Assembly (NCBI GenBank): GCA_029881615.1 | Contig: JAOUMF010000102.1 | Location: forward strand, 1 to 6,987 | Direction of reading: 5' to 3' | DNA length: 6,987 nt | Source: Alphaproteobacteria bacterium | Lineage (GTDB): Bacteria > Pseudomonadota > Alphaproteobacteria > UBA8366 > JADFVY01 | Shown: piece by piece, positions 1,756 through 6,987 of the stretch | How positions within the stretch are numbered: the stretch's first letter is position 1 | Layout: every line of letters starts with the position of its first letter | Translations under genes and position numbers: made by a program | Notes under the pieces: generated by a model | The model's database searches: none | What the model saw: only the letters and a program-made list of their open reading frames with translations | What the model was told of the DNA's origin: nothing

Positions 1756-3273
1756 TCACTTGGCTACGCTTAGCGCTCGCAATTCTGTCTTCAGCACCTT
1801 CCCATAATTATTTTTCGGCAAGGCGTCGAGAAACCGGTATTCCTTCGGGCGCTTGAAGCGCGCGATGCGAGCGAGGCAGAGGGCGTCGAGTTCCCCCGGC
1901 GCCACCTCCCGGCCCGGCGCTGCCACGATGAAGGCCAGCACGCTTTCGCCCCATTCCGGATCCGGCCTGCCGACAACCGAAACCTCGCGCACGCCGGGGT
2001 GCTCGAGCAGCACTTCCTCTACCTCGCGCGGATAGATGTTGGTGCCGCCGGAAATGATGACGTCCTTGCTACGATCCTTCAGCGTCAGATAGCCGTCCCC
2101 GTCGAAGGCGCCGATATCGCCGGTATGCAGCCAGCCGCCGCGCAGGGTTTCGGCGGTGGCCTGCGCGTCATCCCAATAGCCGCGCATGACGGAATCGCCG
2201 CGCACCAGAATCTCGCCCGTCTCGCCCGCCGGCAACGGCGCGCCACCCCCATCCACAACCCGCACATCGACGATGCCGAAAGGCATGCCGACCGACGCCA
2301 GCCTTTCCTCGAAGCGGGGATCGCCCGATCTGGGGAATCGGTGTTTCGCCAGCGAGGTAATGGTCATCGGGCTTTCGCCCTGGCCGTAAATCTGGGCCAG
2401 ACGATTACCCAGCATATGGATCGCCCGCTTGCAGTCCTCCACATACATCGGCCCGCCGCCATAGATAATGGTCTTCAGGCCGGCGAGGTCGGGGTCGGCG
2501 GTTTCGGCAGCCGCGACCAACCGATGTACCATGGTGGGTGCGGCGAACATGGCGACGCCCGTGTGGGCGGTGAACAGGCGAAACATCTCGTCGGGCTCGA
2601 ACCCGCCGGATTCCGGAATCACCTGCGCCGCGCCGGCCGCCACATGGGGAAGGATATAAATACCGGAACCGTGCGACATCGGCGCGGCATGCAGGATGGC
2701 ATCGCCCGGCGCGATCGCGTCCACATCGGCGAAATAGCCCCAATTCATGGCCAAAAGATTGCGGTGGGTCAGCATCGCGCCCTTGGGTCGCCCCGTGGTG
2801 CCGCTGGTATAGAATAGCCAGGCGACGTCATCGGGATCGCAAGGCGCGACAGCCATCCCGTCGCCCTCGCCCAACCGCCGCCATTTCGCGCCGCCTACTT
2901 CGATCACCGCTCGGGGACCGGTCAGCGCGCCTACCATGCAAGCCAGATCGGACGTAACAAAACAGACCCGCGCGCCGCTGTGATCAAGAATGTACTGGAA
3001 CTCGGCAGCCGCCAGTTTTGCATTCACCGGCACGGCGGTCAGCCCCGCCTGCCAGCAGGCAAACATCAGCTCGACATAGTCCGGGCAATTCTTCATGACC
3101 AGCGCCACCCGGTCGCCGGGCGACAACCCCAACCGCCCGCGCAGGTTTGCGGCCAGAACGGCCACGCGCCCGGCCAGCGAGCGGTAATCGCAAACGATCC
3201 GCTCGCCCAGCGCAATCGCCGGCCTGTCGGCGAAAGACCGGCCGGCGCGGTCGAGCAATAAAGCCAGATTCAT
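1756..3273 (-). CDS. AMP-forming acyl-CoA synthetase (ANL superfamily; fatty acid/aryl acid-CoA ligase)
   Basis: This cytosolic enzyme of 505 residues should activate a carboxylic acid with ATP to an acyl-AMP and transfer it to CoA. Core motifs (residues counted from the ATG at 3273): P-loop-like 'YTSGTTGRPKG' (155-165), 'YGGGPM' (271-276), A5 'YGQGES' (296-301), 'GWLHTGDIG' (380-388), hinge region 'DRSKDVIISGGTNIYP' (400-415), and the C-terminal catalytic Lys K492 in 'PKNNYGKVLK'. The A5 motif has Gly where many members have Thr (YGQTE). The frame stays open upstream to a TTG at 3375, but the ATG at 3273 has a strong ribosome binding site and gives the normal family N-terminus ('MNLALLLDRAG', then 'RPAIALGERIVCDYRSL'). 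The chain length and nature of the acid cannot be read from the sequence. It stands alone, convergent with msrB (16 bp apart) and divergent from the aminomutase operon. Confidence 0.93.
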   Translation of the reverse strand: MNLALLLDRAGRSFADRPAIALGERIVCDYRSLAGRVAVLAANLRGRLGLSPGDRVALVMKNCPDYVELMFACWQAGLTAVPVNAKLAAAEFQYILDHSGARVCFVTSDLACMVGALTGPRAVIEVGGAKWRRLGEGDGMAVAPCDPDDVAWLFYTSGTTGRPKGAMLTHRNLLAMNWGYFADVDAIAPGDAILHAAPMSHGSGIYILPHVAAGAAQVIPESGGFEPDEMFRLFTAHTGVAMFAAPTMVHRLVAAAETADPDLAGLKTIIYGGGPMYVEDCKRAIHMLGNRLAQIYGQGESPMTITSLAKHRFPRSGDPRFEERLASVGMPFGIVDVRVVDGGGAPLPAGETGEILVRGDSVMRGYWDDAQATAETLRGGWLHTGDIGAFDGDGYLTLKDRSKDVIISGGTNIYPREVEEVLLEHPGVREVSVVGRPDPEWGESVLAFIVAAPGREVAPGELDALCLARIARFKRPKEYRFLDALPKNNYGKVLKTELRALSVAK

Positions 3274-3277
3274 GATG

Positions 3278-3284
3278 CCCTCCC
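3278..3284 (-). promoter_or_regulatory. Strong ribosome binding site of the acyl-CoA synthetase gene
   Basis: On the minus strand AGGGAGGG is followed by CATC and then the ATG at 3273. This near-ideal Shine-Dalgarno sequence decides the start and argues against the 34-residue upstream extension to 3375. Confidence 0.8.
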
Positions 3285-3369
3285 TGCTTACCGGCATTCG
3301 ACATTGTTGGACCCGGACATCAAAAACCAGGCCCGGCCGGCATGGAAAAATGGCGAGTTGTGCACCCCC

Positions 3370-3434
3370 TGACAAGGGTTGAATTACCCCAAAAAATAAC
3401 TCTTTACATAAAACACGAATCGATCAATTAATTA
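3370..3434. promoter_or_regulatory. AT-rich divergent promoter region between the acyl-CoA synthetase and aminomutase genes
   Basis: The 239 bp between the two divergent genes (3274-3512) contain the only clearly AT-rich stretch of the window, about 3381-3434. For the plus strand, TTTACA at 3403-3408 (5 of 6 to the sigma-70 -35 box) is followed after 18 bp by ATTAAT at 3427-3432 (4 of 6 to -10, but lacking its leading TA). For the minus strand, TTGTCA (reverse of 3370-3375) could be a -35 box, but its -10 is poor. The 8-mer AATTACCC occurs twice, at 3382-3389 and 3430-3437, flanking the plus-strand candidate. The rest of the gap shows nothing I recognise. A promoter somewhere here is likely; the exact boxes are weakly supported. 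Confidence 0.35.
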
Positions 3435-3512: not shown

Positions 3513-4835
3513 ATGGACACATACCGTGTCTCGGAAGGCGTCGTCCCTTCCGAATCGGACCTGGAGGAGCCTCCAAGTTCGCGCCGAAAGAGTATCTCTC
3601 AACAATCCACCACCTATGTGAAGCCGCCCATTTTGGTGCCCCCGCCATCGGGCGGCGTACGATTCCCTGCGGGGAAAGAGCGCCGCGCCTTCATGCGTCG
3701 GTATTTCCCGAACGCCACAATGGCGGATTGGAACGACTGGCGCTGGCAGTTACGCAACCGGATCAAGAACCTCGGCGATCTCGAAAGAATTCTGGCACTG
3801 TCGGAAGACGAGCGCACCGCGGTACGGAACCACAAGGGTTCGCTGCCGATCGGAATCACTCCGTATTACGCCAGCTTGTTGTCACCGGACGACCCGCTGG
3901 AACCGTTGCGCCGAACCCATATCCCGACTGGCGACGAGTATCTGAGATCGCCCGGCGAAGCCGACGACCCGTTGGGCGAGGATCACGACTCCGCGGTTCC
4001 CGGCCTGGTGCATCGCTATCCCGATCGCGTGCTGTTTCTGGCGACCGGAACCTGTTCGACCTATTGCCGCTACTGCACCCGTTCACGCATGGTTGGCGAT
4101 CCGGGCGGGGACTATTCCTTCCCCAAAAGCCAATGGGACAAGGCCATCGCCTATATCGAGGCACATACGGAAATCCGCGATGTGCTGCTTTCGGGCGGCG
4201 ACCCATTGACCCTGGCGGACGATACGCTGGACTACCTGCTGGGGCGGTTACGCGCGATTCCGCATGTGGAATTCCTGCGCATCGGCACAAAGGTACCGGT
4301 GGTGCTGCCGATGCGTGTCACGCGGGGTTTCACCCGTATGCTGCGCAAACATCACCCGCTATGGATAAGCATTCACTTCACGCATCCTGACGAGTTGACG
4401 CCAGAAGTTACCGAGGCCGTTACCCGCCTGGCCGATGCTGGTATTCCGCTGGGCAGCCAAACGGTCCTGTTGAAAGGCATCAACGACGAGGTCGATACGC
4501 TGAAAAGCCTGTATCACGGGCTGCTGATGCGGCGGGTGCGGCCCTATTACCTCTATCAGTGCGACCCTATCACCGGTTCGGCCCATTTCCGCACGTCGGT
4601 GGAAAAAGGGCTGGAGATCATGCGCGGGCTGCGCGGTCATACAACGGGTTATGCCGTTCCAACATTTGTAATCGACGCGCCGGGGGGCGGTGGCAAGATT
4701 CCGTTGTTGCCCGATTATGTGGTCGGCCGCGATGGCGGCGATCTGTTGCTAACCAACTTCGAAGGCGGACTTTATCGTTATCCGGATCCCGACGGCCATA
4801 TCGGATCGGATCGAAATATCGGGGGACTGCTCTGA
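3513..4835 (+). CDS. kamA: Lysine 2,3-aminomutase (radical SAM, PLP-dependent), KamA/AblA type
   Basis: This enzyme moves the alpha-amino group of L-lysine to the beta carbon, giving beta-lysine, with a 4Fe-4S cluster, S-adenosylmethionine and PLP. From the ATG at 3513 it has 440 residues (clostridial enzyme about 416). Visible: 'DWNDWRWQLRNRI' (72-84); radical SAM cysteines C181, C185 and C188 in 'CSTYCRYC'; 'DVLLSGGDPLT' (223-233); 'RPYYLYQCDP' (343-352); PLP-binding K395 in 'DAPGGGGK'. By alignment from memory to the Clostridium subterminale enzyme, the lysine-contacting R134, D293 and D330 correspond to R190, D351 and D388, all conserved, which favours lysine over glutamate. The C-terminal Cys cluster for the structural zinc is absent. 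About 60 residues precede the usual family start, and M61 (ATG 3693) aligns with the clostridial N-terminus. A GTG at 3492 is another possible start; neither 3492 nor 3513 has a good ribosome binding site. The stop overlaps the next gene (TGATG). Confidence 0.93.
   Translation: MDTYRVSEGVVPSESDLEEPPSSRRKSISQQSTTYVKPPILVPPPSGGVRFPAGKERRAFMRRYFPNATMADWNDWRWQLRNRIKNLGDLERILALSEDERTAVRNHKGSLPIGITPYYASLLSPDDPLEPLRRTHIPTGDEYLRSPGEADDPLGEDHDSAVPGLVHRYPDRVLFLATGTCSTYCRYCTRSRMVGDPGGDYSFPKSQWDKAIAYIEAHTEIRDVLLSGGDPLTLADDTLDYLLGRLRAIPHVEFLRIGTKVPVVLPMRVTRGFTRMLRKHHPLWISIHFTHPDELTPEVTEAVTRLADAGIPLGSQTVLLKGINDEVDTLKSLYHGLLMRRVRPYYLYQCDPITGSAHFRTSVEKGLEIMRGLRGHTTGYAVPTFVIDAPGGGGKIPLLPDYVVGRDGGDLLLTNFEGGLYRYPDPDGHIGSDRNIGGLL
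3652..3686 (+). other. Possible RNA hairpin with UNCG-type tetraloop near the start of the aminomutase gene
   Basis: An outer stem GCGGCG (3652-3657) pairs with CGCCGC (3681-3686). An inner stem TTCCC (3663-3667) pairs with GGGAA (3672-3676) around the loop TGCG, closed by a C-G pair, which fits the stable UNCG tetraloop class. It lies 6 bases before the in-frame ATG at 3693 and covers the purine-rich GGGGAAAGAG that could serve as its ribosome binding site. It also lies inside the reading frame as drawn, so it may be chance in GC-rich coding sequence. It has no U-tract and is not a terminator. Confidence 0.3.
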
Positions 4836-5842
4836 TGCTTGTCGGTTTCGTTTATGACGCGCGCGAGGATTATCGCGCCCTGGGTTTCGGCGAGGAAGCG
4901 ATCGCCGAGTTTGATTCTCCGGAAACACTGGCAGAGATCGAGGCTGCGCTCATTCGCATCGGCCATGAGGTCGAGCGGATCGGGCATGGCCGCGAACTGG
5001 CGGCGCGGCTGGTGCGAGGCGATCGCTGGGATCTCGTATTTTCGATCGCCGAAGGCGTTAGCGGCCGCAATCGGGAAGCACAGGTGCCGGCGCTCTGTGA
5101 ATTGTTCGAGCAAGCCTACGTATTTTCAGACCCGCTGACCAACTCCACCACGCTGGACAAGGGTGTGGCAAAGCGATTGGTGCGCGACGCGGGCGTGCCG
5201 ACGGCTCCTTTCGCGGTGCTGGAACATGCCGGCGAGGCGGCAAAGGTTACATTGCCCTTTCCGCTGTTCGTCAAACCGGTAGCGGAAGGCACGGGCAAAG
5301 GCTGTGAATCAGCCTCCAAGGTAACGTCGCGCAGCCAGTTAAAGTCAACGGCGCAACGGCTGATCGCGCGATTCCACCAGCCGGTGATCGTCGAGACCTT
5401 CCTGCCAGGCCGCGAGTTCACCGTAGGGCTGACGGGTACTGGAGAGGCGGCGCGGGCCATCGCCGTGCTGGAGGTGGTGCTGCTTGATGAGGCAGAGGCC
5501 GAAATATACTCTTTCCTGAACAAGGAACAGTGCGAGACCCTGGTTCGTTATCAGCTGGCCGACGACGCGGAAGCGATGCTGGCGGCCGAGCATGCGTTGC
5601 GGGCCTATCGCGCGCTCGGCTGCCGCGACGCCGCCCGGCTGGACTTCCGTTCCGATGCGAACGGCATTCCGATGTTCCTGGAGGCCAACCCGCTGGCCGG
5701 TCTCCACCCGACGCACTCAGACCTGCCAATGCTCGCGACCAAATCGGGCCTGCCCTATGATGCGCTGATGGCCGAAATTCTGGAGTCGGCATCGGCACGC
5801 TACGGGATCGGGAAAACCTGGGAACGGTTACAAGGGTCCTGA
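4835..5842 (+). CDS. ATP-grasp carboxylate-amine ligase, D-alanine-D-alanine ligase-like (first of two)
   Basis: The 335-residue protein has the ATP-grasp fold of the Ddl family, which activates a carboxylate as an acyl-phosphate and joins it to an amine. Visible: 'DKGVAKRLVRDAGVPTAP' (109-126); ATP-binding K147 with 'EGTGKG' (151-156), matching the VKP/EGSS loop of Ddl; 'PGREFTVG' (191-198); and metal ligands D270, E283 and N285 in 'ARLDFR' and 'LEANPLAGLHPTHSDLP'. The last segment resembles the acceptor-site loop of Ddl, including a Ser near the D-Ala position. The N-terminal Ddl signatures (the Ser-Glu-Arg-Glu segment and HG..GEDG) are missing, so the substrate is probably not D-alanine. 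The frame stays open back to 4559 inside kamA, but the ATG at 4835 overlaps the kamA stop, has GGGGGA 8 bases upstream, and begins a typical beta strand 'MLVGFVYDA'. Its position behind kamA suggests beta-lysine as a substrate (inference). Confidence 0.88.
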   Translation: MLVGFVYDAREDYRALGFGEEAIAEFDSPETLAEIEAALIRIGHEVERIGHGRELAARLVRGDRWDLVFSIAEGVSGRNREAQVPALCELFEQAYVFSDPLTNSTTLDKGVAKRLVRDAGVPTAPFAVLEHAGEAAKVTLPFPLFVKPVAEGTGKGCESASKVTSRSQLKSTAQRLIARFHQPVIVETFLPGREFTVGLTGTGEAARAIAVLEVVLLDEAEAEIYSFLNKEQCETLVRYQLADDAEAMLAAEHALRAYRALGCRDAARLDFRSDANGIPMFLEANPLAGLHPTHSDLPMLATKSGLPYDALMAEILESASARYGIGKTWERLQGS

Positions 5843-5845
5843 TCA

Positions 5846-6838
5846 ATGGTGAAAAAACCAAGGGCCGTCATATTGCATGGCGCTTCCGCCGATCGACCCG
5901 ACGAAGCCGACACCATTGTACAGGCCAACATGGTGACCGACGCTCTCAGGCGCATGGGCTGGGTCAGCGAAATAATCGCCGTTGGGCTTGATTTGTCGAA
6001 GCTTGAGCGGCGGCTGACTCCGCGGCCCGGGATCGTTTTCAATCTGGTTGAATCGGTGAATGGCGATGGCCGACTGGTGCATCTTGTGCCAGCCGTTCTG
6101 GAGCATCTCGGCATCGCCTTTACCGGAGCACCGGCGGCGGCGCATTTCGCCACCACCAACAAACCATTGGCTAAACGCCTGTTACGTGGGGCCGGACTCG
6201 CGACCCCGAACTGGATCGGCCCCGGCGAAAATCTGGCGATGCGCAATAGCAGCCAAATGATCGTAAAGGCAGTGTCCGAGGACGCATCCCTTGGCATCGA
6301 TTCGGACTCGGTCGTGCCGGCCGGCCAGGTCCATGCGGAAATCGCGCGCCGCGCCGCCACCTATGGTGGTGAATGGTTTGCGGAAAGCTTTATCGACGGT
6401 CGCGAGTTCAATGTCGGGATCCTGACGGCGGATGGCCGCCCGCAAGTGCTGCCGATCGCCGAAATCCTTTTCGTCGATTATCCGGCCGACCGGCCGCGGA
6501 TCGTCGATTACGAGGCAAAATGGATCGAGGACAGTTTCGCCTTCAATCACACGCCGCGGCGTTTCGACCTGCCGTCAACGGACGCCGGTCTAGTTGAAGA
6601 ACTCGGCCGCCTGGCTATTGCCGCATTCAACCTGTTCGGCCTGAAAGGATACGGCCGGGTCGATTTCCGCGTCGATCGCACCGGCCTGCCCTGGATACTT
6701 GAGGTCAACGCCAATCCCTGCCTGGCACCCGACGCCGGCTTTTCCGCGGCTGCGGCCGAGGCGGGGCTGACGACCGACAATGTGATCGAACGGATTGCCA
6801 GATCAGCCTTTCTCAAGGAGGCGCGCGCCGCCGCCTGA
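5846..6838 (+). CDS. ATP-grasp carboxylate-amine ligase, D-alanine-D-alanine ligase-like (second of two)
   Basis: A 330-residue Ddl-family ATP-grasp protein that is a distant paralogue, not a recent copy, of the gene before it. Visible: 'GIVFNLVESVNGDGR' (62-76), matching the FN..HG..GEDG region of Ddl; 'LEHLGIAFTGAPAAA' (85-99); 'TNKPLAKRLLRGAGLATP' (104-121); ATP-binding K141 with 'EDASLGI' (145-151); 'IDGREFNVGIL' (183-193); the omega-loop-like 'DYEAKW' (221-226), as DYEAKY in Ddl; and metal ligands D273, E286 and N288 in 'GRVDFR' and 'LEVNANP'. The Ddl acceptor loop (PG.T..S) is replaced by 'NPCLAPDAGFS', so the amine acceptor should differ from D-Ala. It starts 3 bp after the previous stop, with AAGGG about 9 bases upstream, and is clearly in the same operon. 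It probably performs another ATP-dependent amide-forming step on the same product line. Gene prediction tools would often label it D-alanine-D-alanine ligase. Confidence 0.9.
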   Translation: MVKKPRAVILHGASADRPDEADTIVQANMVTDALRRMGWVSEIIAVGLDLSKLERRLTPRPGIVFNLVESVNGDGRLVHLVPAVLEHLGIAFTGAPAAAHFATTNKPLAKRLLRGAGLATPNWIGPGENLAMRNSSQMIVKAVSEDASLGIDSDSVVPAGQVHAEIARRAATYGGEWFAESFIDGREFNVGILTADGRPQVLPIAEILFVDYPADRPRIVDYEAKWIEDSFAFNHTPRRFDLPSTDAGLVEELGRLAIAAFNLFGLKGYGRVDFRVDRTGLPWILEVNANPCLAPDAGFSAAAAEAGLTTDNVIERIARSAFLKEARAAA

Positions 6839-6839
6839 C

Positions 6840-6987
6840 ATGTTACGCATTCGCAAAATCACCGACGATCGAACGCCGGCAAATCGCACCGCGGTTTCCC
6901 AGGCGCAGGCGATTATTCGCGCTCAATTCCCGGGAATTCCCGGTAGCGACATCGACAAACTGCCGGAGCAGTTGCGCAATCCACTGA
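6840..6987 (+). CDS. Unidentified protein, N-terminal 49 codons (3' end outside window)
   Basis: An ATG one base after the preceding stop opens a frame that runs off the window end. The visible N-terminus starts 'MLRIRKITDDRTPANR', then an Ala/Gln/Ile-rich probable helix ('AVSQAQAIIRAQFPG') and 'DIDKLPEQLRNPL'. There is no signal peptide or membrane segment. Codon use is like the neighbours. No good ribosome binding site lies at the right distance (AAGGAGG at 6815-6821 is 18 bases away), so translation is probably coupled to the second ligase. I do not recognise the family with certainty. An acetyltransferase-like domain is conceivable by analogy with beta-lysine acetyltransferases that accompany KamA/AblA elsewhere, but no acetyl-CoA motif is visible in this part. 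Confidence 0.75.
   Translation, partial: MLRIRKITDDRTPANRTAVSQAQAIIRAQFPGIPGSDIDKLPEQLRNPL

Follow-up and report, generated by a model that had tools for sequence, protein, structure and literature searches.

A recurrent lysine 2,3-aminomutase, ATP-grasp ligase and acetyltransferase cassette as a candidate route to short beta-lysine peptides

Beta-lysine made by KamA-family enzymes is described for the AblA/AblB pair and for the EpmA/EpmB pair, the latter modifying EF-P. One report (PMC3543383) describes ablA/ablB in Pelobacter as possibly providing a route to an osmolyte. We analysed a stretch of 6,987 nucleotides (the window; contig JAOUMF010000102.1 of assembly GCA_029881615.1) from a metagenome-assembled genome (MAG) of an Alphaproteobacteria bacterium (3.24 Mb, 705 contigs, 81.8% complete), where kamA is followed by genes for two ATP-grasp ligases, here LIG1 and LIG2, and by a fourth gene cut by the contig end. 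We suggest that this cassette makes a short beta-lysine peptide, likely acetylated, by means of KamA, the two ligases and an acetyltransferase of the GNAT family, an explanation that we consider evenly balanced between right and wrong. Protein families, catalytic residues, gene order, fusions and genome-wide co-occurrence, all read from sequence, are the evidence for this proposal.

The scan for LIG2 yielded 156 confirmed stretches, one genome per species, and the counts for loci (L numbers; genomes carry G numbers) refer to the best 80 of the 156. In 64 of the 80 loci (53 of the 61 with at least 4.5 kb of upstream sequence), KamA is encoded upstream of LIG2 in the same orientation; LIG1 lies upstream in 69 (again 53 of 61), and GNAT downstream in 63 (51 of the 57 with at least 3.5 kb of downstream sequence). 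All three accompany LIG2 in 34 of the 45 loci with both flanks long enough, and LIG2 and GNAT are fused as one open reading frame in 13 of the 80. The kamA-ligase-ligase order noticed in the preliminary description of the window is thus conserved across genomes, and the close packing described for the four genes was confirmed by the open reading frames, with an overlap of 1 bp between the kamA stop and LIG1 and gaps of 3 bp (LIG1-LIG2) and 1 bp (LIG2-fourth gene).

The cassette is real and recurs in many lineages, including Alphaproteobacteria, Desulfobacterales and other deltaproteobacterial lineages, Gammaproteobacteria, Planctomycetes, Magnetococcales, Acidobacteria, Verrucomicrobia, Lentisphaerae and Krumholzibacteriia. 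The nearest relative of the window locus is that of a Rhodospirillales MAG (L002). Within the taxonomic order of the window, true LIG2 members were detected in 2 of 43 genomes (G000, 443.8 bits; G046, which belongs to the family of the window's genome, 439.8 bits; next match 143.2 bits), which we took as the true count in place of a tally of 41 of 43 that includes weaker ATP-grasp matches, so the distribution in this order is patchy. Among the predicted genes, no neighbours beyond the core are conserved across lineages, only lineage-specific ones. A literature search of limited depth found no account of the cassette, so that a prior description is possible; the 2009 ATP-grasp amidoligase survey by Iyer and others reportedly may list the neighbourhood.

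The order counts, the 13 LIG2-GNAT fusions, the multidomain protein P0240 (below) and the presence of missing parts elsewhere in the genome support the unity of the pathway. Of nine genomes that lack LIG1 beside LIG2, eight encode LIG1 elsewhere at 493 bits or more; in the ninth, G073 (L068), the LIG1 match reaches just 194 bits. KamA is missing from the locus in nine genomes, of which eight encode a cassette-type KamA elsewhere (58-64% identical) and one, G083 (L059), has only a 37% partial match; the genome of L068, the tenth in this search, has KamA at the locus. GNAT was present in all 12 genomes searched, including the six without GNAT at the locus. The patterns of the split vary. KamA lies 0.03-0.65 kb before LIG1, on a contig other than that of LIG2, in G074, G075, G076 and G078, and GNAT adjoins LIG2 in G074, G075 and G076; KamA stays with LIG2-GNAT in G064 and G067, with LIG1 elsewhere; LIG1-LIG2-GNAT stay together in the genomes of L027 and L077, with KamA elsewhere; and KamA and LIG1 are on separate contigs in G077 and G079. 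A LIG1-free minimal form (KamA with LIG2-GNAT, L034 and L047), which had seemed to bear on the order of steps, was dropped, since LIG1 was found elsewhere in both genomes.

The window KamA scores above the cut-off of the KamA family model TIGR00238 (360.8 vs 199.2 bits) and carries the CxxxCxxC motif at residues 181-188. Alignment with the solved lysine 2,3-aminomutase, PDB 2a5h, places its R134, D293, D330 and K337 at residues 190, 351, 388 and 395 of the window KamA. All 64 cassette KamAs carry these four residues unchanged, together with the three cysteines of the cluster. We take CxxxCxxC to be the cluster motif, the lysine to bind pyridoxal phosphate, the arginine to bind the carboxylate and the two aspartates to bind the substrate lysine. 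The conserved residues suggest that KamA is a lysine 2,3-aminomutase acting on lysine, supporting its assignment as a beta-lysine maker in the preliminary description. The N-terminal tail of the window KamA contains an EEPPS motif that recurs in cassette KamAs: [DE]PP[SG] was found in 35 of the 55 tails scored (those of the 64 with the fold start recognised), compared with a mean of 1.2 and a maximum of 4 in 200 shuffled sets, the rows being related to one another. This motif is possibly a docking site.

LIG1 and LIG2, which are about 27-28% identical to each other, both pass PF07478 and miss the cut-off of the Ddl model TIGR01205 (118.9 and 94.7 bits vs 245.65). All Ddl and Van cut-offs were missed among the matches listed (the best 25 of 35 for LIG1 and 21 of 21 for LIG2). 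The AlphaFold models have a confidence (pLDDT) of 92.5 for LIG1 and 94.7 for LIG2, and the closest folds to both are Ddl by structure match. Residues were counted in the aligned sequences, 57 of the 63 extracted for LIG1 and 67 of the 78 for LIG2. The ATP-grasp Arg, Asp, Glu and Asn are invariant in all of them, Asp, Glu and Asn presumably binding Mg/ATP and Arg the oxyanion. At the position of the Ddl Ser-Leu pair (profile alignment), which we take to be the second-subsite determinant, LIG1 has Ser-Asp in all 57 sequences; in LIG2 the pair is Ala-Gly, with Ala in 66 of 67 and Gly invariant, and the residue just before it is Asp (65) or Glu (2). The acidic residue would suit a cationic substrate, e.g., beta-lysine, and Asp 296, conserved in each ligase, may be a site for an ammonium group. 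A separate Ddl above the curated cut-off is encoded in 13 of 15 cassette genomes; one of the other two has a Ddl match at 245.0 bits (cut-off 245.65), and none was found in the other. LIG1 and LIG2 are thus predicted to be ATP-grasp carboxylate-amine ligases distinct from Ddl, which bears out the earlier view of two divergent D-Ala-D-Ala-ligase-like enzymes.

Additional KamA-ligase arrangements were observed in further loci. In L106 (3775-7349, minus strand), a single Ddl-like ATP-grasp gene, a KamA gene and an M20-type peptidase gene form one run. As read from the sequence, Lys and Thr replace the two aspartates in this KamA, whose best model is glutamate 2,3-aminomutase (586.7 bits, below the cut-off of 650), which suggests a beta-glutamate peptide route. 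The pairing of KamA with a Ddl-like ligase thus recurs in at least one further arrangement. L108 (1158-3375, minus strand) has an overlapping ATP-grasp and KamA-family pair, the KamA being without clear subtype, with a gamma-glutamyltransferase-like gene nearby (recognised by eye). L107 was dropped as another such pair, its genes being on opposite strands.

The fourth gene of the window, left as an unknown before, encodes, as its relatives show, the first part of a GNAT-HDAC(-GNAT) protein, which suggests that the pathway includes an acetylation step and perhaps also its reverse. Its 49 amino acids are 90% identical to the start (4177-4323) of an L002 gene, a 608-amino-acid open frame with an HDAC part that is also cut by a contig end; the HDAC part of the fourth gene lies beyond the end of the window. 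The rest of the gene was not found elsewhere in the MAG, which holds only HDAC relatives that are 35-38% identical. The complete L003 relative (761 amino acids) combines HDAC (PF00850, E 5e-74) with a C-terminal GNAT, and its N-terminal part shows GNAT-like motifs by eye, with no match in Pfam or among solved structures. The nearest solved relatives of its HDAC domain are acetylpolyamine amidohydrolases (PDB 9gkz, 3q9b). The HDAC part is encoded in 22 loci, complete in 18 and cut by contig ends in 4, and the motifs PPGHH, DxDxHHG, LGxD and EGGY are all present in 16 of the 18, L002 and L008 lacking LGxD only. The only close solved relative of the three GNATs compared is 2r7h (E 1e-42 to 3e-46). 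A SET match follows GNAT in six loci (L003, the one compared with Pfam, and L004, L006, L017, L020, L035) and lies about 3.4 kb after LIG2 in L075. P0240 (912 amino acids) unites GNAT-HDAC-GNAT-SET in one polypeptide.

Two further proteins were observed within some cassettes. A small membrane protein, a candidate exporter, is encoded between LIG2 and GNAT in L012, L014, L024 and L060 and near the cassette in L040, that of L024 (the one protein compared) being PF04342. A CxxCxxCC-type protein is inserted after KamA in L018, L032, L065, L068 and L076; in the two compared with PF03692, L065 passes and L068 is just below the cut-off.

According to the best explanation, KamA would convert L-lysine to beta-lysine, and the two ligases likely join beta-lysine to one or two further amino acids, with LIG1 probably acting before LIG2. 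The GNAT that follows LIG2 or is fused to it probably N-acetylates the short peptide, the site being predicted as well. In the lineage of the window the HDAC domain would take the acetyl group off again, and in some alphaproteobacteria an amine of this kind could be methylated by the SET domain, which is encoded downstream or, in one protein, fused. The step order KamA, LIG1, LIG2, GNAT is inferred from the usual gene order.

Several results weigh against this explanation. The top model for the window KamA is AblA (TIGR03820), yet the score is below its cut-off (475.8 vs 525.4 bits), and the GNATs of L003, L024 and L065 have no AblB match in NCBIfam, only other GNAT models below cut-off. The relative 2r7h is named a putative D-alanine N-acetyltransferase. 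HDAC (22 of 80 loci) and SET (7 of 80) are not core parts. The distances of KamA, LIG1 and LIG2 are moderately correlated (Spearman 0.47-0.60, 60-62 loci, uncorrected for host relatedness). Stops interrupt the aligned stretch in LIG1 of G074 and in KamA of G077 and G079, and the varied split patterns do not settle the order of steps. Finally, a scan of 64 sources, made up of the window, 61 of the 80 loci, L106 and L108, gave no riboswitch above the gathering score beside kamA, and no osmo-transporter, regulator or other osmo-gene family is conserved beside the cassette across lineages.

The last two results also weigh against a narrower form of this explanation, in which the peptide, neutral and N-acetylated, would accumulate in salt stress as a compatible solute, like N-epsilon-acetyl-beta-lysine or N-acetylglutaminylglutamine amide (NAGGN). 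Beta-lysine with acetylation is the chemistry of a known solute, and the ligase-GNAT fusion of the 13 loci resembles the NAGGN synthetase. In a single locus, L003, a protein with DUF3772, a domain found in some mechanosensitive channels, comes after the cassette. None of the three hits of the riboswitch scan, a cobalamin riboswitch and two group II introns, lies upstream of kamA, and no osmotic or lysine riboswitch near the cassette reached the gathering score in the 64 sources; the HDAC and SET additions would also be unusual for a bulk solute. We consider this form unlikely. The preliminary description had suggested a beta-lysine peptide or compatible solute as a candidate product; the peptide stands as the best reading, and the osmolyte role is unproven. 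A bacterial protein-tagging system, in which beta-lysine would be attached to an amine on a protein or an RNA and then modified by GNAT, HDAC and SET, appears quite improbable. These three domains together are known mostly as protein-lysine modifiers, and they are fused in P0240, but ligases of the Ddl type, as is established for Ddl itself, use amino acids in free form, the predicted cassette neighbours include no conserved acceptor gene, and the nearest solved HDAC relatives are acetylpolyamine amidohydrolases.

As to EF-P modification, EpmA is above cut-off in 14 of the 17 genomes checked. The cassette KamA is the sole KamA-family match in seven of these (G001, G003, G004, G006, G007, G009 and G046), one of which, G001 (L020), has a record titled complete genome, so a beta-lysine pool shared with EF-P is plausible, and EF-P beta-lysylation in those seven genomes may depend on the cassette KamA. 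KamA might then feed EpmA and EF-P, with the ligases and GNAT branching off to the side or forming another arm that modifies proteins. We consider this improbable as the explanation of the cassette. EpmA is never beside the cassette in the 14 genomes, being on other contigs or about 80 kb (G008) or 1 Mb (G001) away; the window KamA misses the EpmB equivalog cut-off (260.1 vs 369.3 bits); and the two ligases and GNAT would be left unexplained. In G010 and G011 a second KamA, besides that of the cassette, is encoded close to EpmA, and the single KamA of G005 is the cassette one, with no EpmA above cut-off in this genome, which makes EF-P an unlikely purpose of the cassette itself. Neither EpmA nor EF-P was matched in the window's MAG, which is uninformative at its completeness. 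The earlier statement that no known setting is visible needs qualifying in view of the EpmA matches. The last alternative takes LIG1 and LIG2 as ordinary or cell-wall D-Ala-D-X ligases with KamA as a chance neighbour. Databases often name LIG1 D-alanine--D-alanine ligase, and Ddl is the nearest fold; the Ddl/Van cut-offs missed among the matches listed, the loss of the second-subsite pair, the separate Ddl of most cassette genomes, the linkage of KamA in 64 of 80 loci and its place beside LIG1 in four split genomes make this very improbable, and we disfavour it.

A bolder reading, which we consider unlikely, is that bacteria across many phyla have a pathway dedicated to a new class of small beta-lysine peptides, with GNAT and HDAC domains adding and removing an acetyl group on the amine and SET methylating it. 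The lysine toolkit of the chromatin type would then work on a small molecule. If the proposed reading of the cassette is right, sulfate reducers, planctomycetes and alphaproteobacteria would contain a widespread small molecule that has so far escaped notice, and the structure 2r7h would be placed in a pathway. The annotation D-alanine--D-alanine ligase would also be wrong for a large family: LIG1 matches at least 7,999 protein clusters at E <= 1e-20 (the 8,000 best candidates were scored), and the named clusters among the 120 matches listed are D-alanine--D-alanine ligase or hypothetical protein. The GNAT-HDAC-GNAT relatives among the matches listed include named Roseovarius, Ruegeria and Rhodovulum species, and although this refers to that gene only, genetics and metabolomics may be feasible there.

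The features of the window are listed in the table. The weak sigma-70-like match upstream of kamA is no evidence of function. Further upstream, at 649-1739, the genes for a ChaC-like gamma-glutamylcyclotransferase and for methionine sulfoxide reductase B share an overlap of 4 bp; the two probably form a redox pair with no relation to the cassette.

Table. Positions of the cassette genes and nearby features in the window
Feature	Position	Strand	Remarks
Acyl-CoA synthetase gene	1756-3375		Divergent, upstream of kamA
Sigma-70-like promoter match, weak	3369..3397	+	Upstream of kamA; 9/12, 1 found vs shuffle mean 0.2
kamA	3513..4835	+	ATG 3513, stop 4833-4835; alternative upstream GTG 3492 possible
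EEPPS motif, KamA N-terminal tail	3564..3578	+	Recurrent in cassette KamAs
LIG1, predicted Ddl-like ATP-grasp ligase, not a Ddl	4835..5842	+	ATG 4835
LIG2, predicted second divergent Ddl-like ATP-grasp ligase	5846..6838	+	
Fourth gene, start of GNAT-HDAC(-GNAT) protein	6840..6987	+	ATG 6840, 49 codons, then contig end

Compared with the described systems, the cassette shares with AblA/AblB a lysine 2,3-aminomutase family enzyme and a GNAT, and adds two ATP-grasp ligases and, in part of the relatives, HDAC and SET; its GNATs are not AblB in the three compared, and AblB is not among the best 25 of the 28 NCBIfam matches of the L034 LIG2-GNAT fusion. The NAGGN trio likewise couples or fuses an ATP-grasp ligase to a GNAT and the likely product is also an N-acetylated small peptide. 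The cassette differs from it in having a beta-lysine source, two ligases and a fusion order of ATP-grasp then GNAT. The model of the NAGGN GNAT-ATP-grasp synthetase is not among the same best 25 matches, and no asparagine-synthetase-like amidotransferase was recognised in the window, where no search was aimed at one. The EpmA/EpmB system has in common a KamA-family beta-lysine maker, and EpmA itself in 14 of the 17 genomes checked; the cassette is not beside epmA in those genomes, its KamA is below the EpmB cut-off, and two ligases and a GNAT replace the lysyl-tRNA synthetase paralogue. LIG1 and LIG2 keep the fold and the ATP-grasp catalytic residues of Ddl and depart from it in the second-subsite residues, in scores under the cut-offs and in the separate Ddl present in 13 of 15 genomes. 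The HDAC domain of L003 keeps the HDAC motifs and has acetylpolyamine amidohydrolases as its nearest solved relatives, whereas it is fused to a GNAT-like part on its N-terminal side and to a GNAT domain on the other, within a predicted beta-lysine cassette.

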